Under the pieces are notes generated by a model, which had not been told where the DNA came from, did no database searches, and worked only from the letters and a program-made list of their open reading frames with translations. From Lewinellaceae bacterium (GTDB taxonomy: Bacteria > Bacteroidota > Bacteroidia > Chitinophagales > Saprospiraceae), in contig CANJPT010000012.1 in assembly GCA_947476195.1 (NCBI GenBank), positions 1 through 60,316 on the forward strand: a stretch of 60,316 nucleotides of DNA, in the 5' to 3' direction. Made by a program: the position numbers and the translations under genes. This document shows positions 33,231 to 53,617 of the stretch, piece by piece (the stretch's first letter is position 1; the number at the start of each line of letters is the position of its first letter).

Positions 33231-33814
33231 ACCACCTCGCTCATTGCTTCCTTTCCTTTGGGGACGAAGATCTCTTGCTAGGTAATTTTTTAGGCGATGT
33301 TGTGAAAGGTCATAATTGGAAAAAGTATCCAAGGCCCGTCCAGCGAGGTATACTCCTGCACCGGACCATTGATTTCTTTACAGACAATCATCCGCTCACG
33401 GATCGATGCGTAGCGCGTATCCGGCCTTTTGCCAGGCGGTATTCCCCCCCTTTTGTCGATATTCTGTACGATCACCTGCTGGCAATACATTGGGAAAAAC
33501 ATACTATGGAGCTATTTGAGGACTTTGCACAGAATACCTATCTTCAACTGGGAAACAGGGCCTCTGAAATGCCGCCCATCCTTCAGGAGCGCCTGCCAAA
33601 AATGCTTGCCGGGAAATTCTTACACGGCTACAGGAATCGGGAAGGATTAGACTGGGTATTGAACCGGTTTACACACAGGCTTACTGGTCAATTTGACTCT
33701 CAAGCCATTTCAGATGCTTTTTTTGAGGAAATTGATGCGTTTTCAGAAGACTTCAATGGCTTTTTCCCTGATTTGGTGGCGCATGCCAGACTTTTTTTAG
33801 CGCAAAACAGGTAG
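33227..33814 (+). CDS. acpH: Acyl carrier protein phosphodiesterase
   Basis: A 195-residue AcpH/DUF479 protein, which removes 4'-phosphopantetheine from acyl carrier protein. The opening MNHLAHCFLSFGDEDLLLGN and the metal-site segments GILLHRTIDFFTDNHP and YDHLLAIHW are diagnostic; Asp and His ligands of the HD-like site are present. The length agrees with E. coli AcpH (193). It overlaps the Uma2 gene by four bases and is probably translationally coupled to it, an unusual partnership with no evident functional logic. Confidence 0.9.
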   Translation: MNHLAHCFLSFGDEDLLLGNFLGDVVKGHNWKKYPRPVQRGILLHRTIDFFTDNHPLTDRCVARIRPFARRYSPPFVDILYDHLLAIHWEKHTMELFEDFAQNTYLQLGNRASEMPPILQERLPKMLAGKFLHGYRNREGLDWVLNRFTHRLTGQFDSQAISDAFFEEIDAFSEDFNGFFPDLVAHARLFLAQNR

Positions 33815-33819: not shown

Positions 33820-33829
33820 CACGGTGCAG

Positions 33830-36553
33830 ATGCTTCTCAAAAACATACTTTCCGGACTTTGGTGCTTGCTTGCAGTCAGTGCATGGGCACAACACACCCC
33901 CCGTTTGCGCAATTTCCAGCCCGGCGATTACGAGGCTCAAAACCAGAATTGGTCTTTGGCGCAGTCGCCCGAAGGCTGGCTGTACGCTGGAAATAACGGG
34001 ATGCTTATGGAGTTTGACGGCTCCCGTTGGCGGCATTTTGCACTGCCTGAAAAACAAGCCATTCGTGCCGTTGGGATTGGCCGTTCCGGAGAGATCTTTT
34101 GCGGTGGTTTTGCAGAATTCGGCTTTTGGGCAAAAGAGGCTTCGGGTCAATTGAGTTATACGTCATTGAGTGCACAATTGGGGGAAGGACAGATAGGCAA
34201 GGAAGAGATCTGGCACATTTTAGTATTGCCGGAGTATGTCCTTTTTCAGTCCTTTTCAACGCTTTATAAATATGATTATCATAAGGTTGTGCCAATAAAG
34301 CCCCCTAATGCGATCATGTTCGCACAATTGGTAAACGGGCAGGTCGTGCTGCCAGTCATTGAGCGAGGCTTGTATGCGTTGCTGCCGGATAACACCTTTC
34401 GGGAATTGGCTGGTTCGACGGTTTTGAAAGACAAGATCGTACAGTTTCTCGTGTCAAATGGGACTGGCGGGATTTGGGCGGGTACTTCCAGTGACGGTAT
34501 TTTTGAGCTTCAGGGCGGCCAATGCAAACCCTGGAACAACCCACTCAATGAGGTGTTTCGCAAAAAACAACTCAATAAAGCGGTCGCCTTGCGGGACGGC
34601 GGCTGGGCATTTGGAACCATTCTGGATGGTAGTTATATTCTGTATTCCTCAGGCAAATTGCGAAGCCATTTGCACCGAGAAAATGGCCTTCAGAACAATA
34701 CAGTATTGGCGCTTTTAGAAGATCGGGATGGCAACCTCTGGCTGGGCCTCGATCGGGGCATTGATTTTGTCGCCCTGCGCTCACCCCTTACTTTTTTTAC
34801 GGATCAAACGGGTAAAATTGGTACGGTCTATACGGCTGCTGTATACAAAGACTATCTGTATATTGGCACCAATCAGGGTGTCTTCAGAGCCCCGTATCCG
34901 TCACCCCTTTATCCGTCTCCTTTTACTTTGGTAGAAGGTTCTCAGGGGCAGGTGTGGCAGCTTCAGGTATTTGACAATCAATTGATCTGTGGCCATAACA
35001 GTGGCACCTTTCTGGTGGAAGGAAATGCAGTACGAAGGATCTCCAATATTACAGGAGGCTGGTGCACGATCAGAATGCCAGGACATCCCAATACGCTTTT
35101 ACAAGCGACCTATACCGGGTTGGTATTGTATGAAAAGCAGGCCAGGGGCAGCTGGGCTTTTGCCGGGCGAATCGGCGGTTTTGGCGAACCGTTAAAGAAA
35201 ATAATCTTTGACGCGGCAGGAAATATTTGGGGTGCGCATCCTAATAAGGGGCTTTTCCGACTTCGATTGAGTGATAACCTTTTGCAGGTTCGGGAGTTCA
35301 AAACCTTTACCCGTGATGATGGGTTGGCGACGGACTTTCAACTTGGACTGAGTCTCTTGCCCGACAGTCAATCCGCCGTAGTTGTGGTCAATACCTTCCC
35401 AACGGCCCTTCTTCTGCAAAATGATTCGGGATATACCACTTTCGAGCCCATCAATAAACCGCTTGCCGCGAGGAAGTGGTTGCCCGGCCGGGACGAGGAG
35501 CGGTTTGGACTCGACGGGAGTGGGCTTTGGCTTTTGAAGACGGATGGACGCCTTCAAAAGATCCCGCTGGCGCTGGTGCCTTCTTTTGAGAATGTGGAAA
35601 CGCTCTCCAGTGGTGAATATCTTTTCTGTCTGGAAAATGGCTTTGCACTACTCAATCAAGATTCATCCGCATCAGAAACCAGTCCGCATGTCCTTCCTGC
35701 TACCGTTATCAGCAGGATGAGAACAGCTGATAATCAATCGTTTTTGCCGGTAGAAGGCTTGACATTTACTTACAGAAATAACAGCCTGACTTTTCAATTT
35801 GCCCAACCGTTTTACGAACATCCGGTTCGGTTTTCATGGTTTTTAGAGGGGTTTTCTACATCCTGGTCCTCTTGGGCAATTATGTCAGAAAAGGAATTTA
35901 CCAGCCTTCCTTCTGGTCGTTATAGCCTTCGCATAAAGAGTGAGATAGGAGGGGAGGAGGCCGTAATTTCATTTCGTATTGAGCCACCCTGGTATGGTTC
36001 TGTATGGGCATTTATTGGGTATACGCTCGTCTTTTTCGGCATGCTTTGGTTGTTGGAAGTATTCAATCGGCGACGTTTGGAGCGACAACGTGAACGCCTG
36101 GAAACCGAAAAGGAAAGAGAGATCCTGGTCCTGGAGGTAGAAAACAAAAGTCGGGAACTTTCAAACGCAGCTTTCAACTTAATTCGAAAGAACGAGGCGC
36201 TGCAAAGTCTGAAAGATAATTTGTTGGATGCTAAAAATGAACCTCGTGCGCTCTCCCGGATCGTCCGGGAAATTGATTCCCACCTGGAGGGAGACCATGA
36301 TTGGGAGATATTTGAAGAGTCATTTAACCGCGTGCACGATGATTTTTTTAAACGACTGATGCAGACCTTCCCGGATCTTACACCCGGAGATCTCCGCCTG
36401 GCGGCCTATTTAAAAATGAACTTATCGTCAAAAGAGATCGCGCCGCTACTCAATATCTCTGTCAGGGGAATCGAAAACAAGCGGTATCGATTGCGCAAAA
36501 AAATTGGTTTGCCGGAAGAAGCAAATCTTACGGAGTTTATAATGGCATTCTAA
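33830..36553 (+). CDS. Membrane-spanning sensor/regulator: two-component propeller, Y_Y_Y domain, LuxR-type HTH
   Basis: A 907-residue protein beginning with a signal peptide (LLKNILSGLWCLLAVSAWAQ). A periplasmic beta-propeller of reg_prop-like blades follows (about 25-610, for example DRDGNLWLGLDRGIDFV), then a Y_Y_Y domain (about 640-715), one membrane helix (WAFIGYTLVFFGMLWLLEVF, about 725-745), a coiled coil, and a C-terminal helix-turn-helix of LuxR/GerE type (LRLAAYLKMNLSSKEIAPLL, ISVRGIENKRYRLRKKI). It lacks histidine kinase and receiver domains. Such one-piece regulators sense glycans in the periplasm and act on DNA at the membrane. It lies upstream of the glucan locus and is its likely regulator (inference). 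Confidence 0.87.
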   Translation: MLLKNILSGLWCLLAVSAWAQHTPRLRNFQPGDYEAQNQNWSLAQSPEGWLYAGNNGMLMEFDGSRWRHFALPEKQAIRAVGIGRSGEIFCGGFAEFGFWAKEASGQLSYTSLSAQLGEGQIGKEEIWHILVLPEYVLFQSFSTLYKYDYHKVVPIKPPNAIMFAQLVNGQVVLPVIERGLYALLPDNTFRELAGSTVLKDKIVQFLVSNGTGGIWAGTSSDGIFELQGGQCKPWNNPLNEVFRKKQLNKAVALRDGGWAFGTILDGSYILYSSGKLRSHLHRENGLQNNTVLALLEDRDGNLWLGLDRGIDFVALRSPLTFFTDQTGKIGTVYTAAVYKDYLYIGTNQGVFRAPYPSPLYPSPFTLVEGSQGQVWQLQVFDNQLICGHNSGTFLVEGNAVRRISNITGGWCTIRMPGHPNTLLQATYTGLVLYEKQARGSWAFAGRIGGFGEPLKKIIFDAAGNIWGAHPNKGLFRLRLSDNLLQVREFKTFTRDDGLATDFQLGLSLLPDSQSAVVVVNTFPTALLLQNDSGYTTFEPINKPLAARKWLPGRDEERFGLDGSGLWLLKTDGRLQKIPLALVPSFENVETLSSGEYLFCLENGFALLNQDSSASETSPHVLPATVISRMRTADNQSFLPVEGLTFTYRNNSLTFQFAQPFYEHPVRFSWFLEGFSTSWSSWAIMSEKEFTSLPSGRYSLRIKSEIGGEEAVISFRIEPPWYGSVWAFIGYTLVFFGMLWLLEVFNRRRLERQRERLETEKEREILVLEVENKSRELSNAAFNLIRKNEALQSLKDNLLDAKNEPRALSRIVREIDSHLEGDHDWEIFEESFNRVHDDFFKRLMQTFPDLTPGDLRLAAYLKMNLSSKEIAPLLNISVRGIENKRYRLRKKIGLPEEANLTEFIMAF

Positions 36554-39277: not shown

Positions 39278-41140
39278 ATGAATCAAACTTGCTATACGCT
39301 TCTCTTACTTATTTTTGTCAATTCATGTGCGGTGGCTCAGTTGCCATCCATTCCAGTGGGGCTTACCGCTACAGGTTTTGAAAGGCACATTGAATTGACC
39401 TGGCAAGCCAATACTGCATCGAATGTGACAGGGTATAAAATCTATCGTTCTAGCAATGGAGGGGCTTCCTTTGATTTTTTTAAGCAAGTTGGGAAAGAAC
39501 CGATCACAACGGACTGGACCGGCGATGAAGGACTAAATCTGAGCCGACAGTACCAGATCACAGCCATGGCAAGTTCGGTAGAAAGCTCAATTAGTCCCGC
39601 CGTAGTAGGCACTACTCAGTCGTTGAGCGATGATGCACTGTTAGACATGACCCAACGTGCCACCTTTCGTTATTTTTGGGATTATGCACACCCGGTAAGC
39701 GGCCTTGCCCGGGAGCGCTCTAATGGTGATCCCAATATTGTAACTACCGGAGGTTCCGGTTTTGGTATTATGGCGATTATCGTTGGGGCGGAACGTGGTT
39801 GGGTGACCCGGGCTGCAGCGTTGGATAGACTGGTCCAGATTGTCTCTTTTTTGCAATTTGCAGACCGGTTTCATGGCGTTTTTCCACATTGGATGAATGG
39901 CACCAATGGCAATGTAATCCCGTTCAGCCAGTATGACAATGGGGGTGATTTGGTTGAAACAGCCTTTATGATGCAAGGTCTTCTCGCTGCCAGGGCGTAT
40001 TTTGATCAAAACACGCCACTCGAATCAGCACTCCGCGATGTCATCACAGGTCTTTGGGAAGAGGTGGAATGGGATTGGTACCGTAAAAATAACAGTGGAG
40101 TGCTTTACTGGCACTGGTCGCCCAATTACGGCTGGCAAATTAATTTTGCTTTGCGGGGCTTTTATGAGGCCCAGATTGTTTACATTCTTGCAGCAGCTTC
40201 ACCTACCCATCCGGTACCCGGGAGTCTGTACCAAACCGGCTGGACGTCCTTAAATTACGCTAACAATAGTATTCACTTTGGCCGAAAAATTTATTGCGGG
40301 CCGTTCGGTGGCGGGCCAATGTTTTTTGCGCATTACTCCTACCTGGGTTTTGACCCGCGTGGACGAAAAGATGCATTTTGCAACTACTTTGTCCGCAATC
40401 GCAACCATGTACTCATTCAGCAGTCCTATTCAATAGCCAACCCTGAAAGCCATTTGGGCTATTCCGCGGATTGTTGGGGCCTCACCGCCTGCGACGGTCC
40501 GAACGGATACTCGGCACATGATATTTATCCGTCCAATGATGAGGGGACGATTGCACCTACTGCAGCACTTTCCAGTATGCCGTATGCGCCTCAGGAATGC
40601 CTCGCAGCACTCCGTTATTTTTATCGGGAACAAGGGGAACGATTGTGGGATTCCTATGGCTTTTACGATGCCTTTAACCTGGATCAAAATTGGTTTGCCA
40701 GCGCTTATCTTGCCATTGATCAGGGGCCTATTATTGCGATGATCGAAAACCATCGTACTGGTTTGCTCTGGCAACTTTTCATGAAAAATCCGGAGATCGC
40801 ACCAGCCTTGCAAGCGCTTGGATTTCAGGCAGATAGTTCACCTGCGGAAGAAGCTTTTATAGCAAAAAACGGATTTGACGTTTTACTTTTCCCTAATCCA
40901 TTACCTGCTGATAATGGTGAATTGAACCTTGAATTTTCCCTGCTCCAAAAACAAAAAATGACTGCTCAGATCCTGGATGCACAAGGGCGGGTACTTCAGA
41001 TCTTATTTCAGGACAAAGAGATGTCTACGGGCGTTTTTCAGGAGAAATTTCAGGTGAAGCACCTGCCACATGGGGTGTTTTTTGTTGAAATAAAAAATGG
41101 AACTGGCGGGAGCTGGGTACAAAAACTTGTGACAGCATAA
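39278..41140 (+). CDS. Secreted GH144-like (PF10091-type) glucanase with FN3 and T9SS sorting domain
   Basis: A 620-residue exported enzyme: signal peptide (about 1-21), one fibronectin-III-like domain (about 25-112), an alpha/alpha-barrel catalytic domain (about 118-530) and a T9SS type A C-terminal domain (LLFPNPLPADNGELNLEFS to the end). The barrel carries RATFRYFWDYAHPVSGLARE, GFGIMAIIVGAERGW, GLTACDGPNGYSAHD and DEGTIAPTAALSSMPYAP, the pattern of the glucoamylase-like PF10091 family that includes GH144 endo-beta-1,2-glucanases. It should cut beta-1,2-glucan outside the cell (inference). It is the first gene of a six-gene co-directional locus. Confidence 0.8.
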   Translation: MNQTCYTLLLLIFVNSCAVAQLPSIPVGLTATGFERHIELTWQANTASNVTGYKIYRSSNGGASFDFFKQVGKEPITTDWTGDEGLNLSRQYQITAMASSVESSISPAVVGTTQSLSDDALLDMTQRATFRYFWDYAHPVSGLARERSNGDPNIVTTGGSGFGIMAIIVGAERGWVTRAAALDRLVQIVSFLQFADRFHGVFPHWMNGTNGNVIPFSQYDNGGDLVETAFMMQGLLAARAYFDQNTPLESALRDVITGLWEEVEWDWYRKNNSGVLYWHWSPNYGWQINFALRGFYEAQIVYILAAASPTHPVPGSLYQTGWTSLNYANNSIHFGRKIYCGPFGGGPMFFAHYSYLGFDPRGRKDAFCNYFVRNRNHVLIQQSYSIANPESHLGYSADCWGLTACDGPNGYSAHDIYPSNDEGTIAPTAALSSMPYAPQECLAALRYFYREQGERLWDSYGFYDAFNLDQNWFASAYLAIDQGPIIAMIENHRTGLLWQLFMKNPEIAPALQALGFQADSSPAEEAFIAKNGFDVLLFPNPLPADNGELNLEFSLLQKQKMTAQILDAQGRVLQILFQDKEMSTGVFQEKFQVKHLPHGVFFVEIKNGTGGSWVQKLVTA

Positions 41141-41194
41141 CTTAAATTGTAACTAATTCATTTTCAAACATAACCATTCTAAAAAGAAGTGCGT

Positions 41195-44100
41195 ATGAAA
41201 AATTTCTTTATCACAACCTTACTTTTGGTATTTGGCTGCCTGGGACTTAATGCCCAGGTAACTTACGAAGACTTTGAAGGAGGCGCCGCCGACCTCGGCT
41301 GGGCCGGTCTAAACGGTAGCTACAACGGAGCGGTCGTTAATCCAGACCAATCTGGTATCAACACCAGTACCGGTGTAGGCTCCTACACCAATGCTGCGGC
41401 TTTTGACTTTTGTTTTGCGTTGTACACTTTCCCTTCGACCTTAGATATCAGCGAGTTCAACCAATTCAAAATGAAAATCTGGTCGCCTACAGCACCTTGT
41501 AAAGCCCTTCTGAAACTGGAAGGTTCTGGAGGTCCGGCGGTAGAAAAAATCGTGGATATCACGGTAGCCAATCAATGGGTTGAATATACCTTCGACCTAT
41601 CTGCAGGCGCAGGCTACACCAATTTGAAAACGATTTTGGTCTCTTTCAACTCTTTCGTTTTGGGTGATGATAAGACCTACTATTTTGACGATATTCGTGC
41701 TGAAAAAGCAGAAATTTGTCATGAAACTTTTGAGCCAGCTGCTTCTGCAAACTGGATTGGTTTGAATGGTACTTTTAATGGTGCAATCGCGAACCCCGGC
41801 GTTGATGCCGTAAACGGCTCTGCAACGGTAGGTTCATTTACCAATAACCCTGCGGAAGCTTACAATTTTGCCTTTGGAACCTTTGCTGCGCCACTTGATC
41901 TGAGCGTTTATAACCAATTCAAAATAAACGTTTGGCTGCCTGCTGCTACCAAGGTTTTATTTAAAGTGGAAGGCACTGGAGAATCTTTGGAGCAGACAAA
42001 ATATGTCGCCGTGGGTGGAGCCTGGCAACAGCTTAGCTTTGATATGTCAGCAGCTAAAGCTTTTACGACCATTACTAAGATCCTCATCGTATTTAATCCG
42101 GGAGCTACAGGAGACAACAATACGTACTACTTCGATAACATTTGTTCGAATCCAAATGCTTGTAATGGCGTAGTCCCTGATCCTGAAATTATTGACGATT
42201 TTGAATGCAACCGGAATGCATCCTATACTGGTGACTGGAGCGCCCTTTCTGTGGTGGCCAATCCTGCACCAACAGGTGACAACAATTCCTCTAAAGTGGG
42301 TAGGTTTGAAGACCCAAGTGGAAACGGTACAGAATATTCTAATTTGTCCATTGGCTATGCAGACCCGATTGATCTATCAGTTCGCAATCGTTTCTCCTGC
42401 CAGGTTTGGGCGCCCAAGACCGGCAATCTGCTAATCAAACTGGAAGGTGGTCCAAACGCACCCATGGAAGTTGGCACGCAGGTCACAGAGCTTAACAAAT
42501 GGGTGACCTATACCGTAGACTTTAGCAGCCAGATCGGCAAAGGCCACAAGAAGTTTGTCATCTTCTTTAATGCCGGCGTCAATGGCGAACCAGGCGATGT
42601 CTATCACATCGACAACATCAAGCTTTCAGCTGCTCCTACGGCTCCACCACTGGAAGATTTTCAGGATGGTGTTCATCTGGGCTGGCAGTCGCTGGAGCAA
42701 AATGACGTGATCCATGGTGTATTCCAGGGCCCGGTGGCTAATCCAAATCCTAATGCAGTGAATGGTTCTACACAAGTGGGCTGTTATGCAAAAGGCAGCT
42801 CTGCGTTTTCCACCTTGCAAGGTATTTCGCTGACTAATTTTGATCTGTCTGTTTATGGTCAGTTTAACCTGGACGTACTCAGCCCGGCGAGCGGTGGTAG
42901 CGTTACGCTTCTTTTGAACTCTCCTACCGAAGGTAACAAAGAGGCAGAGGCAACGATCACTACACCAGGCCAATGGGAGACCCTCAGTTTTGATTTTTCG
43001 GCGTTTAGTGGAATCACTAATTTTAGTGAAGTGCGTATCATTTTTAATGCAGGAACGGCCAGTGCTGGTCAGATTTGGTACTTTGATAACCTTGCACAGA
43101 CGAAGGTTACGATTGATCCTTGTGCAGGGGTATTGCCTGTTGCCAACATCATTGATGATTACGAATGCCAACGCAACTATACGCAGATATTCTATGGAGC
43201 CAGCGATCTTAAAGTAGTGAACAATCCACATCTGGCCCCTGAAAACGGCTCACTAAAAGTGGGTGAATATACCGATCCTTCAGGCGGAGGCACCGAGTTT
43301 GCTGGCATTGGCATTGAGTTTCCTGCCCCTCCGGATCTGAGCCTTTTCAATCACCTTTCCATGCAGGTTTGGGCGCCGGCTGACAATGTTCCATTCCTGT
43401 TTAAGCTGGAAGGCAGTGGCCCGGGAAACGAGGTTTTCGATACCTTGCCACAGGGAAACAAGTGGTATAAATTTGACATCGACTTTAGCGGTGCAGTAGG
43501 TACACAACATACGAAGCTTGTAATATTTACCAATGTATTAAGTGCCACCGGCGGCGGCACCTATTACTTTGACAACATCAAATGGTCACGTGCCGGCTAC
43601 AATGGATGTATCCTTGATAATGAGACAGCACTGACTACTTTCGATTTTAAATACTTCGCCAACGCAGCTCTTGAAAACACTTTTGCTGAGGTCATTGACA
43701 ATCCAAATCCTTCCGGGATCAATACCAGCAGTAAAGTGGGTAAATTCATTAAAAAAGGCGACGCATTGCCGTTTGCCGGGATGTACACCAATCCGGATCT
43801 GGAGGCTCCAATTGATTGGAAAGGCTTGAAAACAGTGAAGGCCAAAGTCCACATGGATCACATTGGCAACTTTGCGGTAAAGGTGGAAGGCTCCCAGACG
43901 GGTGCGTCCCCGCTTGAACTAAAAGTCCCCAATACATTGACCAACCAGTGGGAAGAACTCACTTTTGATTTCTCAGCGGTACCGGATAATGGCGAATACC
44001 GTCGTTTGACCTTGTTCTTCGACCTTGGAATTGATGCTACAGGCAGTGACGTGACCTCTTACTACGATGATATCGTAATAGGCGCCGGCAAGTGTGGTTC

Positions 44101-44365
44101 TGTAGGTACGTTCAGCCCGGCCGAGGTGGTTGCTATGCGCGTATCACCCAATCCAACGGCTGATTTTCTTTTGGTTGAAAACATGGAAGGTGTAACCCGG
44201 CTTGAAGTATACGACCTGTTTGGCCGCCGTCTGGCACAGGCAAGTACTTCCGGAGATACTTATACTGATCTTAACGTTTCACAGTTTCCTGCTGGTATGT
44301 ACTTGTTGAGTGGTTACGACCGTAATGGTGCACTGGTGAGTAAAGCCAAGTTTGTGAAAAAATGA
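41195..44365 (+). CDS. Six-repeat secreted protein, glycan-binding candidate, T9SS-sorted
   Basis: A 1056-residue protein with signal peptide (MKNFFITTLLLVFGCLGLNA) and six tandem beta-sandwich repeats of about 150 residues, starting near 27, 180, 335, 490, 655 and 810. Each opens with a (D/E)(D/T)FE-like motif, contains a NP...NxSxxVGxY/F turn and an (F/V)KxEG strand, and ends with YYFDNI/IWYFDNL. The layout recalls carbohydrate-binding galactose-binding-like modules. A T9SS type A domain (SPNPTADFLLVENMEG to the end) anchors or releases it at the surface. The locus has no SusE/SusF gene, so this may take the surface glycan-binding role. ATG 41195 is preferred over GTG 41189. Confidence 0.75.
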   Translation: MKNFFITTLLLVFGCLGLNAQVTYEDFEGGAADLGWAGLNGSYNGAVVNPDQSGINTSTGVGSYTNAAAFDFCFALYTFPSTLDISEFNQFKMKIWSPTAPCKALLKLEGSGGPAVEKIVDITVANQWVEYTFDLSAGAGYTNLKTILVSFNSFVLGDDKTYYFDDIRAEKAEICHETFEPAASANWIGLNGTFNGAIANPGVDAVNGSATVGSFTNNPAEAYNFAFGTFAAPLDLSVYNQFKINVWLPAATKVLFKVEGTGESLEQTKYVAVGGAWQQLSFDMSAAKAFTTITKILIVFNPGATGDNNTYYFDNICSNPNACNGVVPDPEIIDDFECNRNASYTGDWSALSVVANPAPTGDNNSSKVGRFEDPSGNGTEYSNLSIGYADPIDLSVRNRFSCQVWAPKTGNLLIKLEGGPNAPMEVGTQVTELNKWVTYTVDFSSQIGKGHKKFVIFFNAGVNGEPGDVYHIDNIKLSAAPTAPPLEDFQDGVHLGWQSLEQNDVIHGVFQGPVANPNPNAVNGSTQVGCYAKGSSAFSTLQGISLTNFDLSVYGQFNLDVLSPASGGSVTLLLNSPTEGNKEAEATITTPGQWETLSFDFSAFSGITNFSEVRIIFNAGTASAGQIWYFDNLAQTKVTIDPCAGVLPVANIIDDYECQRNYTQIFYGASDLKVVNNPHLAPENGSLKVGEYTDPSGGGTEFAGIGIEFPAPPDLSLFNHLSMQVWAPADNVPFLFKLEGSGPGNEVFDTLPQGNKWYKFDIDFSGAVGTQHTKLVIFTNVLSATGGGTYYFDNIKWSRAGYNGCILDNETALTTFDFKYFANAALENTFAEVIDNPNPSGINTSSKVGKFIKKGDALPFAGMYTNPDLEAPIDWKGLKTVKAKVHMDHIGNFAVKVEGSQTGASPLELKVPNTLTNQWEELTFDFSAVPDNGEYRRLTLFFDLGIDATGSDVTSYYDDIVIGAGKCGSVGTFSPAEVVAMRVSPNPTADFLLVENMEGVTRLEVYDLFGRRLAQASTSGDTYTDLNVSQFPAGMYLLSGYDRNGALVSKAKFVKK

Positions 44366-44540: not shown

Positions 44541-46730
44541 ATGAAAAAAATCTCTCTTATTTTTTTGCTCGGGTTAATGGCTTGCCATTCAGCGCCGGCA
44601 CAGATGCCGTCAGCTACCGACAGGGTGGATAAGCCTCCATTTAACTTGGACGAGGTGCAAAAACGGCATTTTTTATTCTTTTGGGAATTGGCGAACCCCG
44701 TCAATTTTCAGGTTCCGGATAGGTATCCAACCGATAATTTTTCAAGTATTGCGGCCACTGGTTTTGGGCTCTCTGCCTATCTAGTAGGAGCAGAACGTGG
44801 TTGGATCACGCGCGCTCAGGCTGTAGAACGGGTACAAAAAACCCTCGAATGCTTAAAGAACTTGCCACAAGGCCCTGATGCCAGTGGCGTAGCCGGCTAT
44901 CGTGGCTGGTTCTATCATTTTCTGAACACTCAAACCGGGCTTCGATATAAAACCGTCGAGCTCTCGAGTATTGACACAGGTTTGCTCATGGCAGGAATCT
45001 TGTCCTGCATGACCTATTTTGATCAGAATAATCCAACCGAAGAGGCCATCCGCCAAACTTCCGATTTCTTGTTTCGCCGCGTAGAATTTGACTGGTTTTT
45101 GAACGAACAAAATCGCCTGAGCATGGGCTGGTTTCCAGAACGTGACGGATTTTTATCTGCTGAGTGGCATGGCTACAATGAAGCTATGATCCTCAATATC
45201 ATGGCACTGGGTTCTCCAACCCACCCCGTTCCAGCAAAAAACTGGCAAAAATGGTGTGATACATACTTTCGCGCTGAATTCCAGGGGCAGGATTATGTGA
45301 ATTTTGGTCCACTTTTCGGACATCAGTACAGCCATTGCTGGATCGATTTTCGGGGTATTCAGGATCCTTACATGCAAAAGGCCGGGTTCGATTATTTTGA
45401 AAATTCCCGCCGGGCTACGCTAGCACAACGGCAATATGCGATCAAAAATCCTGGCAAGTTCAACGGTTATGGCCCCAATATCTGGGGGCTTACCGCTGGC
45501 GACGGACCAGATGCCGAAGTGCTACACGAAGGGAAAAATATTTTTTGTCCCGGCTACAGTGCGCGTGGCGTAGCCATTGATTATCAAGAAGATGACGGTA
45601 CTATTGCCCCTACTGCGGCAATCAGTTCGCTGCCATTTGTACCGGAATTTTGCCTGCCTACCCTTGAAGCGATGTGGAATCGCTGGCCTGTGGGTAAATA
45701 CGGGTTCTTTGATGGGTACAATGAAACCTTCACTGAGACCAGCCGTTCCCCCAATGCCCAGCCCGGTTTTCCATTTTGGGTCGATAAGGACTACCTTGGT
45801 ATTGACCAAGGTCCTATCGTACTGATGATGGAGAATTATCGCTCCGGGTTTCTTTGGGATTTGATGAAGCGCAACCCGTATATCGTACAGGGACTGAAAC
45901 GTGCTGGTTTTACTGGTGGCTGGCTTGCACAAACGGATATTGCCAAACGGACCCAAGCCTTATCCTTTACAGAGGGAGAAAATGTCAAAATTAATCCGTC
46001 GATTCCGATCGATCCGCAAGGCTTTTTTCAAAGATCTATATACAAGGACAAAACAGGGAATAGCCTGCCATACCAGCTAATGACACCTTGGCAAAAAGCC
46101 CCCAGCCACCAATCAACAGCGACCAACTACCCCCTGGTTATTTTCCTTCATGGCTCTGGCGAACGTGGTACGGAGAATCACGAGCAAATGAATAATGGCG
46201 TATTTGCATTTTGTGAAAAATGGATGCTTGAACAACATCCGCATTACTTATTGGTACCTCAATGTCCCCCGGATATTCGATGGGGTGGCAGTAATAAAGA
46301 CTGGCAAACGCTATATCAGGCAGACCCGACAGTGCCTGGACGTATGGTTTTGGAATTGGCAAAAAAAATGCTTCGGGAGCACCCGGATATTGACCCCGAT
46401 CGGGTGTATATCACAGGATTGAGCATGGGCGGTTTTGGCACGTTTGATCTGTTGGCTCGCAGCCCCGACTTGTTTGCTGCCGGACTGCCCCTTTGCGGTG
46501 GCGGTGACCCGGTCTATGCCGATAAAATCAAAAATATACCCCTTTGGGTATTCCATGGTAGTTTGGATGATGTAGTGAACCCCCGATGTTCAAGGCAGAT
46601 TGTGGCTGCCCTGGAAAAATTGGGCGGGAACGTGAAATACACGGAGTATTCAACGATGCACCATGATATCTGGAATGTCACGTACTACAATCCTGCGGTG
46701 TTAGAATGGCTGTTTGCACAGCACAAGTAA
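44541..46730 (+). CDS. Lipoprotein fusing a GH144-like glucanase domain to an alpha/beta-hydrolase esterase
   Basis: A 729-residue predicted lipoprotein (lipobox LMAC at about residues 12-15). Residues about 32-460 are a PF10091/GH144-like barrel (TGFGLSAYLVGAERGWITRA, GLTAGDGPDAEV, DDGTIAPTAAISSLPFVPEF), clearly homologous to the enzyme at 39278 but lacking FN3 and sorting domains. Residues about 480-729 are a PHB-depolymerase/CE1-like hydrolase: LVIFLHGSGERGTENHEQ, nucleophile in GLSMGGFGTFD, Asp in HGSLDDVV and His in MHHDIW. The fusion suggests that glucan cleavage is tied to removal of acyl or similar ester groups. The linker is unbroken and both catalytic sets look intact. Confidence 0.82.
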   Translation: MKKISLIFLLGLMACHSAPAQMPSATDRVDKPPFNLDEVQKRHFLFFWELANPVNFQVPDRYPTDNFSSIAATGFGLSAYLVGAERGWITRAQAVERVQKTLECLKNLPQGPDASGVAGYRGWFYHFLNTQTGLRYKTVELSSIDTGLLMAGILSCMTYFDQNNPTEEAIRQTSDFLFRRVEFDWFLNEQNRLSMGWFPERDGFLSAEWHGYNEAMILNIMALGSPTHPVPAKNWQKWCDTYFRAEFQGQDYVNFGPLFGHQYSHCWIDFRGIQDPYMQKAGFDYFENSRRATLAQRQYAIKNPGKFNGYGPNIWGLTAGDGPDAEVLHEGKNIFCPGYSARGVAIDYQEDDGTIAPTAAISSLPFVPEFCLPTLEAMWNRWPVGKYGFFDGYNETFTETSRSPNAQPGFPFWVDKDYLGIDQGPIVLMMENYRSGFLWDLMKRNPYIVQGLKRAGFTGGWLAQTDIAKRTQALSFTEGENVKINPSIPIDPQGFFQRSIYKDKTGNSLPYQLMTPWQKAPSHQSTATNYPLVIFLHGSGERGTENHEQMNNGVFAFCEKWMLEQHPHYLLVPQCPPDIRWGGSNKDWQTLYQADPTVPGRMVLELAKKMLREHPDIDPDRVYITGLSMGGFGTFDLLARSPDLFAAGLPLCGGGDPVYADKIKNIPLWVFHGSLDDVVNPRCSRQIVAALEKLGGNVKYTEYSTMHHDIWNVTYYNPAVLEWLFAQHK

Positions 46731-46800: not shown

Positions 46801-49026
46801 ATGCAAAAAATGATCTATTTAAGACTTATTCCAACGCTATTGCTCTTTTTGAGCATCCAGTTTTTAGACCCGATTGTTGCACAAAATTACCGCCCCTCCA
46901 AAGGCATCGAAGCACGCGTGAATGCGCTGCTTGCTAAGATGACTCTGGATGAAAAGATCGGTCAGCTTACGCTTTACACTACCGACTGGGGAAGCACCGG
47001 GCCGACCATCCGCGAGGGTTACAAAAATGATATCCGTAGTGGTGCCTGTGGCAATCTCTTTAATTGTCATACCATCGGTTTTGTCCACGACCTTCAAAAG
47101 GTGGCCGTCGAAGAAACCCGTATGAAGATCCCGCTGCTTTTTGGTTATGATGTAATTCATGGTTATAAAACAATTTTCCCCATTCCGCTGGGCGAGGCTG
47201 CCAGTTGGGACCTGGAGGCCATCGAAAAATCTGCCCGGGTTGCTGCGATTGAAGCTACTGCAGCGGGCCTGAACTGGACTTTTGCGCCTATGGTAGATAT
47301 TGGCCGCGACCCCCGCTGGGGCCGGGTAATGGAAGGCGCAGGCGAAGATACCTGGCTGGGCTGCCGTATTGCAGAAGCCAGGGTACATGGTTTTCAAGGT
47401 AAAAAACTGGGCGATACCGATGCTATGCTCGCTTGTGTAAAACACTTTGCCGGATATGGAGCACCCATAGGCGGGCGGGAATACAATACAGTGGATATGA
47501 GCGAGCGGTACTTTCGGGAGTATTATTTGCCAACCTATGAGGCAGCCGTAAAAGCTGGCGCTGCAACGGTGATGACTTCCTTTAATGATTATGATGGGGT
47601 GCCTGCTTCCGGAAATAAATACCTGATAGATGGTATTCTGCGCAAAGAATGGGACTTTCAGGGCTTTGTGGTCACAGATTATACCAGTACCAATGAAATG
47701 GTAAATCATGGTGTGGTAGTTGATGAAAAAGAGGCGGGTGAACTTTCCTTAAATGCCGGGGTGGACATGGATATGCAGGGCGGGATTTACCAGCGTTTTT
47801 TAAAACAATCCTTAAAAGAAGGAAAAGTCAGTACGAAACAGATCAATGAAGCTGTGCGTCGTGTGTTGCGCCTCAAATTTGAACTGGGACTCTTTGAAGA
47901 CCCTTATAAGTTTTGCAATGCAGATCGGGAAAAAAAGGCAATGCTTGCTCCAGAACACCGGGCTGCAGCCCGGGACCTGGCCCGTAAATCCATCGTTTTG
48001 CTCAAGAATGAGCAGCAGGTTTTGCCCTTAAAAAAGGGTCAAAAGATCGCACTGATCGGCCCTTTGGCCGATAATAAAAGCGAACTTATTGGCAACTGGA
48101 ACGGGGCAGGAAATGCAAATGACTGTGTGAGCCTGCGCGAGGGCTTTTCACCTGCCCAAGGCTCCTTGGTGGTATATGCTAAAGGTTGTGATCTGGAAGT
48201 CACCGATCGCTCGGGCTTTGCTGCTGCCCTTAAAGCCGCACAAAATGCAGATGTTGTGGTGATAGCTGTTGGAGAAGGAGCTATGATGAGTGGTGAAGCC
48301 GGCGCACGTGCTGAACTCGGATTGCCTGGAATTCAGGAAGAATTGGTCTTGGAGCTTTGCAAAACGGGCAAGCCTGTAGTCGTGATATTGATGAATGGCA
48401 GGCCACTTGCTATTCCCAAAATTGCTGAAAATGCCACCGCTATTCTGGAAACCTGGTGGCTTGGAACAGAAACGGGCAACGCTATTACAGATGTGTTGTA
48501 CGGTGTTCACAATCCTTCTGGCAAGCTGCCTATGACCTTCCCGCGCTCCGTGGGCCAGGTGCCGATTTTTTACAACTACAAAAATACAGGTCGCCCGTAC
48601 GACTCAAATTCGAAATGGACCAGTAAGTATATTGACATGCCTAATTCGCCGCAGTGGCCTTTTGGCTTTGGGCTAAGTTATACGAGCTTCGGCTATAGCG
48701 AGCCAAAGGTGGCCCTTAAGTCAGGCGGCAACTTGCTGACTATAACGGTTAATGTGACGAATACTGGCAAACTGCCAGGAGAAGAGGTTGCACAACTTTA
48801 TGTTCGGGACCTTGTAGGTTCCGTAACCCGTCCGGTGAAGGAGTTGAAAGGCTTTCAGAAAATCATGCTTCAGCCAGGAGAAACCAGGGAATTGAAGTTC
48901 ATCCTGACAGAAAAAGACCTGAGTTTTTACCGCAGGGATATGACATTCGGCACAGAACCAGGGGAATATGAGATCATGATCGGTGGTGATTCTGAAACAG
49001 TCAAAAAAGTAAAAGTCAGACTGTGA
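46801..49026 (+). CDS. bglX: Beta-glucosidase, GH3 (BglX family)
   Basis: A 741-residue exported GH3 enzyme: signal peptide (about 1-27), (beta/alpha)8 domain (about 30-385), alpha/beta sandwich and fibronectin-III-like domain (about 655-735). Substrate-binding CVKHFAGYGAP and the nucleophile Asp in GFVVTDYTST are present; GEGAMMSGEAGARAELGLPG leads the second domain. It should release glucose from beta-linked gluco-oligosaccharides. As I recall, a Bacteroides GH3 beside a GH144-type protein prefers sophoro-oligosaccharides, which fits this operon. ATG 46801 and 46810 are both possible; the gene lies 70 bp after the GH144-esterase gene and 79 bp before susC. Confidence 0.92.
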   Translation: MQKMIYLRLIPTLLLFLSIQFLDPIVAQNYRPSKGIEARVNALLAKMTLDEKIGQLTLYTTDWGSTGPTIREGYKNDIRSGACGNLFNCHTIGFVHDLQKVAVEETRMKIPLLFGYDVIHGYKTIFPIPLGEAASWDLEAIEKSARVAAIEATAAGLNWTFAPMVDIGRDPRWGRVMEGAGEDTWLGCRIAEARVHGFQGKKLGDTDAMLACVKHFAGYGAPIGGREYNTVDMSERYFREYYLPTYEAAVKAGAATVMTSFNDYDGVPASGNKYLIDGILRKEWDFQGFVVTDYTSTNEMVNHGVVVDEKEAGELSLNAGVDMDMQGGIYQRFLKQSLKEGKVSTKQINEAVRRVLRLKFELGLFEDPYKFCNADREKKAMLAPEHRAAARDLARKSIVLLKNEQQVLPLKKGQKIALIGPLADNKSELIGNWNGAGNANDCVSLREGFSPAQGSLVVYAKGCDLEVTDRSGFAAALKAAQNADVVVIAVGEGAMMSGEAGARAELGLPGIQEELVLELCKTGKPVVVILMNGRPLAIPKIAENATAILETWWLGTETGNAITDVLYGVHNPSGKLPMTFPRSVGQVPIFYNYKNTGRPYDSNSKWTSKYIDMPNSPQWPFGFGLSYTSFGYSEPKVALKSGGNLLTITVNVTNTGKLPGEEVAQLYVRDLVGSVTRPVKELKGFQKIMLQPGETRELKFILTEKDLSFYRRDMTFGTEPGEYEIMIGGDSETVKKVKVRL

Positions 49027-49105: not shown

Positions 49106-52039
49106 ATGAAGCAGTTTAACAAAAGAATCAACCTTTTAGGGCTAATAATTTGCCTATTGGCAAGTTCGGCATTTGCCCAAACCCGTATCACCGGGCGTAT
49201 CACAGATTCCGCCAACGGAGATGCGATCATCGGTGCCTCTGTACTTGAAAAAGGCACCTCCAATGGTATAATTACTGATCTGGAAGGCAATTTCATGTTA
49301 AGTGTCAGTGATCCAAATGCTTTATTGGTTGTAAATTATGCAGGTTACACCTCGCTGGAGGTGGCGATTGCGGGCCGTTCGCAGGTTAATATTTCCATCA
49401 TAGAAGCGGAAAGTCTGTTGGAAGAGGTTGTCGTAGTCGGCTACGGTGTTCAGCGTAAGAGCGATCTTACGGGTGCTGTGGGTACCGTCAAAGCCAAAGA
49501 CATCGAACGTATTCCGACGGCATCGGTAGAGCAGGCCTTACAAGGTAAAATTGCCGGGGTTTATGTCTCGCCTTCCAGTGGAGAGCCTGGCAGTGGCGCG
49601 ACCATCCGGATCCGGGGTACCGGTACGCTCAACAACGCAGGCCCGCTTTATGTCGTGGATGGAATGTTGCTGGATGATGCTTCCTTCGTTAATCCCCAGG
49701 ATGTGGCGAGTATTGAAGTGCTAAAAGATGCTTCCTCCACAGCGATCTACGGTAATCGGGGTGCAAACGGGGTTATTATCATCACAACCAAGCGTGGTAC
49801 AAAAGATCGGAAAGCAGTTGTTTCGATCAGTTCCTACTATGGAATTCAACAAATCGCTAAAAAAATATCCCTCGCAAACGGATCTGAGTTTGCGCAGATG
49901 TACAACGAACTGCCAGGCAACACCAATCCTTTGCCCGATCCAGAGCAGTACGGCAATGGAACCGATTGGCAGGATGTTATTTTTCGGGATGCGCCCATAG
50001 CCAATGCACAATTGAGCGTCAATGGAGTGTGGAAAAAACTCGATTACAATGTCTCCGGCAACTATTTTAACCAACAGGGAATTATTGAAGAAACCGGGTT
50101 TGAACGCTATACCGGCCGATTCAACGGCGAATATCCCGTTTTAAAAAACCTCAAAATTGGAACAAATGTGGCCTATTCAAAGACCGTGCTCCAAAGTGTT
50201 GGCGGCGGCGTTTTGGGCGGCGTATATCGGATGCCATCGATCTATTCGGTTTATGACAGCACAGGAAAATTCTCTGATCCAACCAAGTTCGGCCAGTCTA
50301 TCGGAAACCCGGCTGCCGACTTATTTTACAAAAACGATCAGGATACCCGGGTGAACCGTCTGGTAGGTACGGTTCATGCGGACTGGACTTTTCTGAAGGA
50401 CTTTACGTTCCGTACAAACTATGGTTTTGACCGTCGTGACGACCGTTTTCGATACCATGAGCCTGTGTTTATGGTGACTACCTCCCAGCTCAATAATCTG
50501 GATCGTACCACGCGCGACACCACCATAACCAGGAACTGGCTCTGGGAAAATACCCTGAATTATAACAAAGCATGGGAAGATGTCCGCCTGAATGTCCTGG
50601 CTGGCCAATCTGCCCAGGAAAACTATTATAAAAGACGCAACACCATAAATGATATCCTGCAACCCAATGGCGAGGGTATCGCAGAATGGGCAATGCTGAG
50701 CTACCTCGGTCGCGTAAATGCCACCTTTTTTGATCGCTATCTATTTACGGCTTCGATGCGTGCAGATGGATCTTCCCGGTTTTCTAAAGCCAATCGCTGG
50801 GGATATTTCCCTTCTTTGGCGGCTGGGTGGAACATTGCGGAAGAACCCTTCATGCGCAACCAGAAGGTCTTTGACCGGCTGAAACTCCGCGCCTCCTGGG
50901 GGATCACGGGCAACGATAAAATCCAGGAATATCCGTCTTTGGGTACCATCACTGATGAATTGTACAGTGCATTCGGGGATACCGTTCAATCAGGCGCTAC
51001 CCTGGTCAACTACGCCAACGCTGATGTACGCTGGGAAACCACCCGACAGACAGATGTAGGCCTGGAATTTGCGTTATTGAATGGCCGGTTTACAGCCGAG
51101 ATCGACTGGTATAAACGTTTTACCTATGATATTTTGAGTGATCTCCCCATTCCCGATTACGTCGGATCCGGTTCATTCCCATTCGTGAATGCTGCTCAGG
51201 TGGAAAATACCGGTTGGGATTTTACCTTGCAATGGCGTGAAACAAAAGATAAAATCACCTACAATTTTGGGGTGATCCTTTCGCCTGTTAAAAATAAAGT
51301 GTTGAAGATCAATGAAGGTAAATCAGAGATCTTCGAGGGCCAGACCAGTCAGGGTGACTTTGCAACCCGCACCACCATTGGCTCTCCGATTGGCGCATTT
51401 TACGGGTATCAGGTAGCGGGTGTTTTTCAAAATCAGGAGGAAATTAACAGTTCGCCCCATTTTGGGAACGAAAAACCCGGCGATTTCCGCTTTGCCGACC
51501 TCAATGGCGACTCTGTACTCAACTCCCTGGATCGCACTTATCTGGGAAGCCCGATACCAAGTCTGTCGTATGGGTTTTCAGCGGGCCTGGAGTTGTTTGG
51601 GTTTGATTTTGCCGCCGACTTTTTTGGGGTAAAAGGGAACAAGGTCGTGAATGCCAAAGCCGTGGCCCGTTTCGACACCCCCAATTGGGAAACCCTGTGG
51701 AACGATAACCATTGGACAGGCGAAGGCACCAGCAATTCCGTACCCCGTATTACCAATGGTGGTCATAATTATAAGATGTCCAGTTTTCTGGTAGAAGACG
51801 GCTCCTTTTTTCGCTTGCGGACGGTGGTACTTGGCTATTCTCTTCCCAAACGTTGGCTTTCCAATATCGGGATGAGCCGCGCCCGCTTGTATGCAAGTGG
51901 TACCAATCTATGGACCAAACAAGCGTATTCAGGCTTCACGCCTGAATTTCCAGGTGAAAATTCCTTTCGGGCAGGCATAGATTACCTGAGTTACCCGATG
52001 GCTAAAACGATGTTGGTAGGGCTTGATGTGACGTTTTAA
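49106..52039 (+). CDS. SusC/RagA-family TonB-linked glycan transporter
   Basis: A 977-residue outer-membrane importer: signal peptide ending LLASSAFAQ, carboxypeptidase-D-like domain (about 25-105, GRITDSANGDAIIGASVLEK), the TonB-box-like EEVVVVGYGVQRKSDLTGAV, plug (about 115-235, YVVDGMLLDDASFVNPQDVA, STAIYGNRGANGVIIITTK) and a barrel ending VGLDVTF. Paired with the SusD downstream, it would import oligosaccharides made by the surface glucanase. ATG 49106 starts the signal peptide; the TTG at 49070 is rejected. Spacing to its neighbours (79 and 84 bp) is that of one operon. Confidence 0.95.
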   Translation: MKQFNKRINLLGLIICLLASSAFAQTRITGRITDSANGDAIIGASVLEKGTSNGIITDLEGNFMLSVSDPNALLVVNYAGYTSLEVAIAGRSQVNISIIEAESLLEEVVVVGYGVQRKSDLTGAVGTVKAKDIERIPTASVEQALQGKIAGVYVSPSSGEPGSGATIRIRGTGTLNNAGPLYVVDGMLLDDASFVNPQDVASIEVLKDASSTAIYGNRGANGVIIITTKRGTKDRKAVVSISSYYGIQQIAKKISLANGSEFAQMYNELPGNTNPLPDPEQYGNGTDWQDVIFRDAPIANAQLSVNGVWKKLDYNVSGNYFNQQGIIEETGFERYTGRFNGEYPVLKNLKIGTNVAYSKTVLQSVGGGVLGGVYRMPSIYSVYDSTGKFSDPTKFGQSIGNPAADLFYKNDQDTRVNRLVGTVHADWTFLKDFTFRTNYGFDRRDDRFRYHEPVFMVTTSQLNNLDRTTRDTTITRNWLWENTLNYNKAWEDVRLNVLAGQSAQENYYKRRNTINDILQPNGEGIAEWAMLSYLGRVNATFFDRYLFTASMRADGSSRFSKANRWGYFPSLAAGWNIAEEPFMRNQKVFDRLKLRASWGITGNDKIQEYPSLGTITDELYSAFGDTVQSGATLVNYANADVRWETTRQTDVGLEFALLNGRFTAEIDWYKRFTYDILSDLPIPDYVGSGSFPFVNAAQVENTGWDFTLQWRETKDKITYNFGVILSPVKNKVLKINEGKSEIFEGQTSQGDFATRTTIGSPIGAFYGYQVAGVFQNQEEINSSPHFGNEKPGDFRFADLNGDSVLNSLDRTYLGSPIPSLSYGFSAGLELFGFDFAADFFGVKGNKVVNAKAVARFDTPNWETLWNDNHWTGEGTSNSVPRITNGGHNYKMSSFLVEDGSFFRLRTVVLGYSLPKRWLSNIGMSRARLYASGTNLWTKQAYSGFTPEFPGENSFRAGIDYLSYPMAKTMLVGLDVTF

Positions 52040-52123: not shown

Positions 52124-53617
52124 ATGAGCACACCATTTAAATCACTCATCGCCGCAGCATTCGTGCTGTTTGCTGTTACCAGTTGCCAGAAGGATTTTCT
52201 CGATCGCAAACCACCCAACAAACTGACGTTTGAGGAGTTTTTCAAAACCGAAGCCCATGCTTTCGAAGCCACCAATGCGGTGTATGAGCAATTCCGTAAT
52301 TTCGACTGTATCGCACTTCCTTACATCGCCTGCACCGATGTGCTGAGCGACGATGCAGACAAAGGGTCCACGGCCAACGATGCGCCGCTCATGAGTGATA
52401 TCGACAATTTTACCGTAGAAGCCACCAATCCTTTGGTGGCCCCTATTTACAAGGGCTATTACCGGGCCATTGCCCGCGCCAATGTTGCCATTCAAAATAT
52501 CCCGAATATAGACATGGATGTTGATACCCGCAATCGATTGATTGGCGAGTGTAAGCTTCTGCGGGCGTATAGCTATTTGTTGCTGGTGCAGTGGTTTGGT
52601 GAATTGCCTATCATCACCACAACCCTGCAGGATGATGAATATTATGCGAAGGCCCGTCAGCCACGCGAGCAGGTGTACGCCCAGATTGAGGCTGATCTGA
52701 CGGATGCACTTAGCGTTTTGAAAGAAAAAAGTGCCTACGCTCCGGCCGACCTGGGTCGCGTGACCAAAGGTTCCGCGCGAGGCTTACTCGCCAAATTGTA
52801 TATGATCAAAAAGGAGTGGGCCAAGGCAGAAATCCAGTGTATGGATATCATCCAATCTTTGGAATACAGCCTTCTGCCCAAATACAGCGACAACTTTCTC
52901 CCTATTGGAGAAAATGGATCGGAATCTGTTTTTGAACTTCAGGCCGTTGCTTTGCCGACACAACAAGCTGCTGGTCCAGGATCTTCTCCATTTAATATGG
53001 TCCAGGGGGTAAGGGGCAATCCAAACCTGGGCTGGGGCTTTAACCGTCCTTCAGATAACCTCGTGACCTCCTACGAAAATGGCGACCCACGCCGCGAAGC
53101 GACCGTTATTTATGTCGGAGAGATCCTTCCGGATGGATTAACACAGGTACAGGACAACGTCGAGATCATCAACGAACGCTTCAACCAAAAAGCATGGGTG
53201 CCTGGTCATCCAGGCCTGCAGGACAATGGTCCGGGCAATATCCGGGTCATTCGGTATTCGGATATCCTGTTGCTGGCTGCGGAGGCTAAGAATGAGTTGA
53301 GCAAGGCCGCTGAGGCCCTGCCATTGCTGAATCAGGTCCGCAAGCGGGCGCGTGGCACCAACAACTTTATTCTTCCGGATGTAACCGTAACCGATCAGAC
53401 CTTGCTGCGCGAGAAGATCTACAAAGAACGCCGGGTAGAACTGGCCATGGAGCAACAACGCTGGTTCGATCTGTTGCGCTGGGGCCGTGCAGGTTCGGTC
53501 ATGCAAGCAGCCGGGAAAACAAATTTCATTATAGGGAAGCATGAATTACTCCCGATCCCGCAAACAGAAATTGATCTGACCAGTGGGCGGATCGTGCAGA
53601 ATCCGATGTATAATTGA
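52124..53617 (+). CDS. SusD/RagB-family glycan-binding lipoprotein
   Basis: A 497-residue surface lipoprotein with lipobox SCQKDFLDRKPP (Cys about 21) and the all-helical SusD fold; AEAKNELSKAAEALPLLNQV and KERRVELAMEQQRWFDLLRW are the highly conserved C-terminal segments. It caps the SusC barrel and hands over oligosaccharides. It is the last gene of the locus; a strong hairpin follows only at 54107-54138, beyond two repeat elements. Confidence 0.95.
   Translation: MSTPFKSLIAAAFVLFAVTSCQKDFLDRKPPNKLTFEEFFKTEAHAFEATNAVYEQFRNFDCIALPYIACTDVLSDDADKGSTANDAPLMSDIDNFTVEATNPLVAPIYKGYYRAIARANVAIQNIPNIDMDVDTRNRLIGECKLLRAYSYLLLVQWFGELPIITTTLQDDEYYAKARQPREQVYAQIEADLTDALSVLKEKSAYAPADLGRVTKGSARGLLAKLYMIKKEWAKAEIQCMDIIQSLEYSLLPKYSDNFLPIGENGSESVFELQAVALPTQQAAGPGSSPFNMVQGVRGNPNLGWGFNRPSDNLVTSYENGDPRREATVIYVGEILPDGLTQVQDNVEIINERFNQKAWVPGHPGLQDNGPGNIRVIRYSDILLLAAEAKNELSKAAEALPLLNQVRKRARGTNNFILPDVTVTDQTLLREKIYKERRVELAMEQQRWFDLLRWGRAGSVMQAAGKTNFIIGKHELLPIPQTEIDLTSGRIVQNPMYN

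Follow-up and report, generated by a model that had tools for sequence, protein, structure and literature searches.

What would a bacterium gain from carrying a beta-1,2-glucanase and an esterase in one polypeptide? The question is raised by a gene at positions 44541..46730 (+) of a 60,316-nucleotide stretch of Lewinellaceae DNA (GenBank assembly GCA_947476195.1, contig CANJPT010000012.1), referred to here as the window. The gene starts with ATG, runs without an internal stop and encodes 729 amino acids that, from the open reading frame, Pfam and a structure model, comprise a signal peptide, a GH144 beta-1,2-glucanase domain, a linker, and an esterase domain. PF10091 matches residues 208-446 (266 bits in the Pfam scan), and three alpha/beta-hydrolase models, PF00326 (604-666), PF02230 (530-713), and PF12146 (663-712), match above their Pfam cut-offs. 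A preliminary description of this DNA had read the protein as a GH144-like domain joined to an alpha/beta hydrolase and had proposed structure prediction as a check. The AlphaFold2 model, built on 63 sequences, reaches a mean pLDDT of 91.7 and a pTM of 0.86; its top Foldseek match is 8XUL (XcSGL), with a target-length TM-score of 0.95, and its C-terminal half matches 3DOH best. The two-domain architecture is therefore borne out by the reading frame, by Pfam and by its presence in 10 other genomes; since the fused frame is open in each of these, an assembly artefact, a chance joining or a frameshift fusion is ruled out.

The N-terminal half forms an (alpha/alpha)6-barrel domain of the XcSGL type (approximately residues 33-465; 44637..45935, +), assigned from its match to 8XUL and the Foldseek result. 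In a phmmer search of the PDB the best relative is XCC2207 (8XUL), with 480 bits over residues 20-463; far below it come CpSGL (5GZH; 196 bits) and 'putative glucoamylases' from Bacteroides. XCC2207, or XcSGL, is an endo-beta-1,2-glucanase specific for beta-1,2-glucan that its authors place in GH144 (PMC12102758). Its general acid E239, replaced by Q in the crystallised mutant, aligns with E214 (45180..45182, +), and its clan-defining residues F286 and Y367 correspond, in an alignment counted by eye, to F259 (45315..45317, +) and Y339 (45555..45557, +); D145 (44973..44975, +) aligns, by eye, with the candidate general base, likewise an acidic residue in CpSGL (E142; roles from PMC12102758). 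The half thus combines what is expected of GH144 in clan GH-S: sequence similarity, the conserved Glu, Phe, and Tyr, and, in the model, a single (alpha/alpha)6-barrel. Placement in the new families GH192-194 was considered and rejected, as the best match, XcSGL, stays in GH144 according to its authors (PMC12102758). Because that closest solved relative is classed as GH144 and the clan residues are kept, the 'GH144-like' of the preliminary description can be sharpened: as judged from sequence, the half is GH144 proper, with predicted inverting endo-glucanase activity on beta-1,2-glucan. XcSGL shares with it the general acid, both clan residues and the fold, and differs in having a disordered C-terminal extension and no esterase (PMC12102758). 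The Parabacteroides distasonis beta-1,2-glucanase BDI_3064 (PDB 5Z06) aligns with the GH144 half through its chain residues 273-699 (137 bits), whereas its extra part is N-terminal, and BDI_3064 has no match to the esterase half of the window protein.

The C-terminal half is a putative esterase of the alpha/beta-hydrolase fold (approximately residues 492-729; 46014..46727, +). All three motifs quoted for its catalytic triad in the preliminary description are there: S628 in GLSMGGFG (46422..46424, +), D676 in GSLDDVV (46566..46568, +), and H708 in MHHDIW (46662..46664, +). All 62 domains of an alignment made without the degenerate relative L176 have these three residues, and the triad is kept in all 11 GH144-fused proteins. 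The closest solved relatives are the esterase 3DOH (181 bits; approximately 40% identity in Foldseek) and the C-terminal esterase domain of LC-Est1 (LC-Est1C, 3WYD; 84 bits), the latter without GH144. The 3DOH/3DOI protein, presumably the Thermotoga maritima esterase, differs in having approximately 148 residues ahead of the matching part, which we take to be an Ig-like domain, and in lacking a glucanase. Regarding the label 'CE1-like', alignment, model, and Foldseek agree on an alpha/beta-hydrolase fold with a Ser-His-Asp triad, as in CE1, so that this part of the claim stands; membership itself is weakened, as PF00756 (Esterase), present in the linked relatives L086, L092, and L101, has no match in the fusion at E 0.001 and TIGR01840 (PHB depolymerase esterase) reaches 46 bits, below its cut-off of 108. 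Both models are, we assume, CE1-associated. In the esterase-domain alignments no residue of the C-terminal half stood out as a partner for an acidic acyl group, as would be typical of a succinyl pocket; R580, present in 10 of the 11 fused proteins where other esterases mostly have Tyr or other residues, is a feature of the fused clade, as is R498 (11/11).

The protein starts with a 21-residue signal peptide (44541..44603, +), recognised from its sequence and from the N-termini of the 10 fused relatives. It had been called a lipoprotein, and a possible lipobox, LMAC with its cysteine at position 15, is readable in the window protein. That cysteine recurs in 2 of the 11 fused proteins, those of the window and of locus L003, a count that is approximate since the start codons of the relatives were set mechanically. 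As a description of the fusion protein in general the lipoprotein reading is therefore doubtful, and a plain Sec signal with a periplasmic location appears more likely, although the window protein, taken by itself, may yet be a lipoprotein.

The fused relatives are 50-81% identical to the window protein. An uninterrupted match over both halves is found in five of 199 genomes of the family (the window's own, G040, G141, G120, and G013), the last of them cut by a contig end at residue 710; in 395 genomes of the phylum, only the window's own spans both halves uninterrupted among the matches listed. A scan of contigs from named MAGs, which also provides the coverage outside the phylum, gave six more fused loci, confirmed among 25 stretches and labelled Saprospiraceae (four), Chitinophagales (one), and Bacteroidota (one). 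A GH144 tree was built from 91 rows, leaving out rows shorter than 350 residues and three of every four CpSGL-type rows; in it the 11 fused proteins form one clade (SH-aLRT 99) nested in a clade with 27 unfused XcSGL-type proteins. The esterase tree, with 67 rows after removal of one shorter than 170 residues (L171), likewise unites them in one clade (92/99; 89% of bootstrap trees). Because the fused proteins group together in both trees, the simplest reading is a single fusion event that started from a stand-alone GH144. A second, independent GH144-esterase fusion was suspected from spanning tblastn matches in 11 genomes (G223, G299, G364, G395, G399, G415, G419, G478, G509, G103, and G170) and was rejected: each match held a stop, and the maps resolve into two neighbouring genes. 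The idea that the fused and the linked stand-alone esterases make up a single lineage was likewise dropped, as the esterase tree sets them apart.

In the window the fusion gene lies within a set of genes for glycan utilisation. Upstream are a second, CpSGL-like GH144 with a T9SS sorting tail (39278..41140, +; PF10091 at 257 bits, PF18962) and a long, T9SS-tailed protein that matches CBM_4_9 (41189..44365, +; Pfam) and is kept beside GH144 in relatives. Downstream follow a GH3 beta-glucosidase of the BglX type (46801..49026, +; NCBIfam PRK15098, 825 bits against a cut-off of 666), a SusC-like TonB-dependent transporter (49106..52039, +), and a SusD-like glycan-binding protein (52124..53617, +), both assigned by Pfam. 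A Reg_prop regulator (33824..36553, +; Pfam) probably belongs to this locus, as many related loci have a relative of it next to GH144. Adjacent susC and susD with genes for carbohydrate-active enzymes, and similar sets in relatives, make this a SusCD-type polysaccharide utilisation locus. Where the XcSGL-type GH144 is unfused (28 loci of the family), 22 loci also encode both the CBM protein and the CpSGL-like GH144, and 17 add GH3, SusC, and SusD to these two (within the stretch fetched). The best solved relative of the window GH3 is 3U48 (807 bits), ahead of 5XXL (731 bits) and 4ZO6 (590 bits), the latter two presumably beta-1,2-glucooligosaccharide enzymes; the order is such that these matches do not decide the linkage preference of the GH3. 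Other genes in the window include one for a TonB-dependent receptor (36698-38869, -), which separates the regulator from the GH144 genes, runs opposite to them and has a 79% identical counterpart at the same place in L004, and two overlapping frames for a beta-helix protein and an SprB-repeat protein with a T9SS tail (58680-59789 and 57287-58792, -), which are possibly one interrupted gene.

The probable explanation is that the fusion is a periplasmic enzyme of a beta-1,2-glucan locus, predicted both to de-acylate and to cut bacterial beta-1,2-glucans. Inferred here are the action of the esterase on beta-1,2-glucan, the nature of the acyl group, the location, and the order of the steps, which would run as follows. 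On the outer surface, the T9SS-tailed GH144 and the CBM-like protein with its own T9SS tail would bind and cut the glucan, and SusC and SusD would bring the pieces in. The esterase domain of the fusion would then take off O-acyl groups, most likely succinyl or acetyl, and its GH144 domain would cut the backbone; GH3 would act last, freeing glucose once the ends are bare. Esters on the glucan would presumably hinder both GH144 and GH3, and joining the esterase to the endo-glucanase would keep de-acylation beside chain cutting.

Known substituents of these polymers fit such a scheme. Periplasmic glucans with beta-1,2 backbones occur in most Proteobacteria (PMC4726272); succinyl, acetyl, phosphoglycerol, and phosphoethanolamine groups have been reported on periplasmic glucans, O-succinyl and O-acetyl among them (PMC4726272; PMC11842490). 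Succinyl and acetyl are favoured as the best candidates for the acyl groups removed because they are reported as O-acyl groups of these glucans. A passage of PMC11842490 states that the positions of the substituents in linear periplasmic glucans are not identified, and plain glucan was the assay substrate for the beta-1,2-glucanases of PMC12102758.

Genes that may remove such groups were counted in 92 loci with GH144 and 29 loci without it, representative sequences serving as BLAST queries. Exo_endo_phos genes occur in 4 of 92 versus 1 of 29, GDPD genes in 6 (all of one genus code) versus 0, and BD-FAE genes in 6 versus 3. Of 28 loci whose esterase is unfused, 10 hold Exo_endo_phos or GDPD, as against none of the 10 fused loci fetched and none of 54 GH144 loci without the esterase; in the window, a scan of 18 of the 39 ORFs of at least 150 residues likewise gave no phosphodiesterase-type gene (Exo_endo_phos, GDPD). 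The name of PF04336, 'acyl carrier protein phosphodiesterase', matched at 33227-33814 of the window, points to another substrate. Separate Exo_endo_phos genes lie in L150, L151, and L164. GDPD genes lie downstream of a GH144-esterase-GH3 set in L103 (13412-14182, +) and in L104, L106, L155, L156, and L157; these six loci come from genomes with a single genus code and have genes for GH43 and peptidase M28 nearby. The kinds of genes thus parallel the known glucan substituents, and in the window locus the esterase alone fits, a parallel that is suggestive and not proof.

The same counts bear on another substrate. Sulfatase genes and genes for GH43 with an F5/8 domain each occur in 13 of the 92 GH144 loci and in none of the 29 loci without GH144, which would suit a different glycan with beta-1,2-glucan stretches, an environmental exopolysaccharide instead of a periplasmic glucan of Proteobacteria, whose esters the esterase would act on and whose backbone GH144 would cut. 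The literature contains a related proposal: GH144 loci are described as abundant, the marine ones with a sulfatase gene, from which an unknown sulfated marine polysaccharide has been inferred (PMC6499787), and a cluster of GH3, GH144, susCD, and sulfatase genes has also been described (PMC8072126). However, neither a sulfatase nor GH43 with F5/8 is among the 18 window proteins scanned, and for the window locus this substrate is unlikely.

De-acylation as a function of the C-terminal domain can also be weighed by the company that the esterase keeps when unfused. The esterase half and PF10091 were each searched alone in the same 199 family genomes, leaving out the five fused genomes and eight PF10091 matches below 80 bits, none of which is near an esterase place. 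GH144 is present in 59 genomes, 41 of which hold 45 unfused esterase places. Sixteen of the 45 places, in 16 genomes, lie within 15 kb of a GH144 gene versus 0.25 expected at random (P approximately 4e-25 if independent), an expectation that assumes positions uniform along the genome, ignores contig breaks and rests on a limited number of candidates scored per genome. Because the 16 places belong to about four lineages of the esterase tree, they overstate the number of independent events; with four events in place of 16, a hand estimate against the same 0.25 gives approximately 1e-4. Linkage is far from universal, as 29 of the 45 places are not linked to GH144. Among the 59 family genomes that hold GH144 but not the fusion, 43 lack an esterase within 15 kb, so most GH144 loci function without it; it is also absent from 54 of the 92 GH144 loci compared, which were partly chosen for the esterase and some of which are cut by contig ends.

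Arrangement within linked loci is tight. Of 19 loci in the 'pul' group, 17 have their closest GH144 or GH3 gene on the strand of the esterase, either touching it or separated from it by no more than 35 bases; the gap is 137 bases in L148 and 2144 bases in L169. In genomes of code f5, another family of the same class that is probably, as a guess, Flavobacteriaceae, a divergent esterase lineage is placed between GH144 and GH3. Many of these loci were chosen for an esterase match and are illustrative, the linkage count over 199 genomes being the measure of frequency. Further fusions occur: G020 and G126, of one genus code, carry the same type of esterase on the N-terminus of GH3 (994 residues each), and in G113 an Exo_endo_phos domain is fused to the esterase in a 513-residue protein between GH144 and GH3 genes (L168:9905-11446, +). 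The two GH3 fusion genes (L147:3274-6258, -; L167:9970-12954, +) come directly after two GH144 genes. Double hydrolases of esterase and BD-FAE type, divergent from the regulator, are found in four family loci (L092:298-2076, -; L086:16462-18162, +; L087:1822-3522, -; L071:3-1301, -), three of them whole at 566-592 residues and one cut by the fetched stretch.

GH144 itself also occurs in other forms. XcSGL-type proteins of 941-1031 residues with long extra regions lie near a shorter GH144 at L107:4066, L108:3864, L113:6041, and L120:14594, with a solute-binding-protein gene in L107 and L108. In part of the family's genomes, PF10091 also matches open frames of 2895-2907 residues (G120:C19:33861, G062:C1:122346, G007:C60:4710, and G117:C49:59097), which we take to be the size of cyclic beta-1,2-glucan synthases; G120 holds both such a frame and a GH144-esterase fusion.

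It could be argued that the C-terminal half is an esterase of general use, or a peptidase-like hydrolase, with no part in glucan breakdown, the fusion mirroring only neighbourhood or co-expression. The best alpha/beta-hydrolase model in Pfam is indeed that of the prolyl oligopeptidase family, the closest solved relative is annotated just 'esterase', and relatives are also found without GH144 nearby: for 29 of 67 esterase rows the fetched stretch holds no GH144, so the esterase family is not specific to beta-1,2-glucan. Against this, linkage to GH144 recurs in several esterase lineages, the esterase sits between both enzymes of the pathway, and separate fusions have joined it to GH144 and to GH3, all of which makes a bystander hydrolase quite improbable. 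That the domain is mainly a binding or spacer module, catalytically dispensable, is very improbable given an intact triad in 11 of 11 GH144-fused proteins, even though the counterpart in G073, a GH3 with a degenerate esterase-like N-terminal domain (L176:9296-12178, +), has lost the serine motif. De-acylation joined to glucan cutting is thus the reading retained. The suggestion in the preliminary description that the second domain removes substituents of natural cyclic beta-1,2-glucans gains indirect support from the linkage (16 of 45 places versus 0.25), from the GH144-esterase-GH3 order and from the fusions to GH3 and Exo_endo_phos; this support does not extend to the acyl group or to cyclic as opposed to linear glucan.

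The claim that the pairing is undescribed is not contradicted by the open-licence literature, covered mostly by titles and abstract openings, in which no GH144-esterase fusion was found. Fusions of glycoside hydrolases with esterases in utilisation loci are already known, and it is the pairing with GH144 that appears new. Bacteroidota proteins such as CE15-GH8 (PMC8417218) and fused acetyl-feruloyl esterases (PMC7110780) likewise combine an esterase with another catalytic domain in a single chain; the latter differ in being described for xylan, and the abstract openings of both sources do not name beta-1,2-glucan. Nor did the titles, abstract openings, and passages of open-licence literature give an enzyme that strips these glucan substituents for catabolism.

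A more specific version of the preferred reading is tentative, with the balance leaning slightly against it: the esterase may be a dedicated de-acylase of osmoregulated periplasmic or cyclic beta-1,2-glucans that, together with its GH3- and Exo_endo_phos-fused versions, marks loci dismantling decorated glucans. If so, succinyl and acetyl groups would be stripped by the esterase and phosphoglycerol-type groups by Exo_endo_phos or GDPD enzymes. The fusion and the linked esterases are candidate tools for mapping substituents on beta-1,2-glucans, and the tie of an esterase to both GH144 and GH3 suggests that the natural, decorated polymer serves as food for some Bacteroidota.
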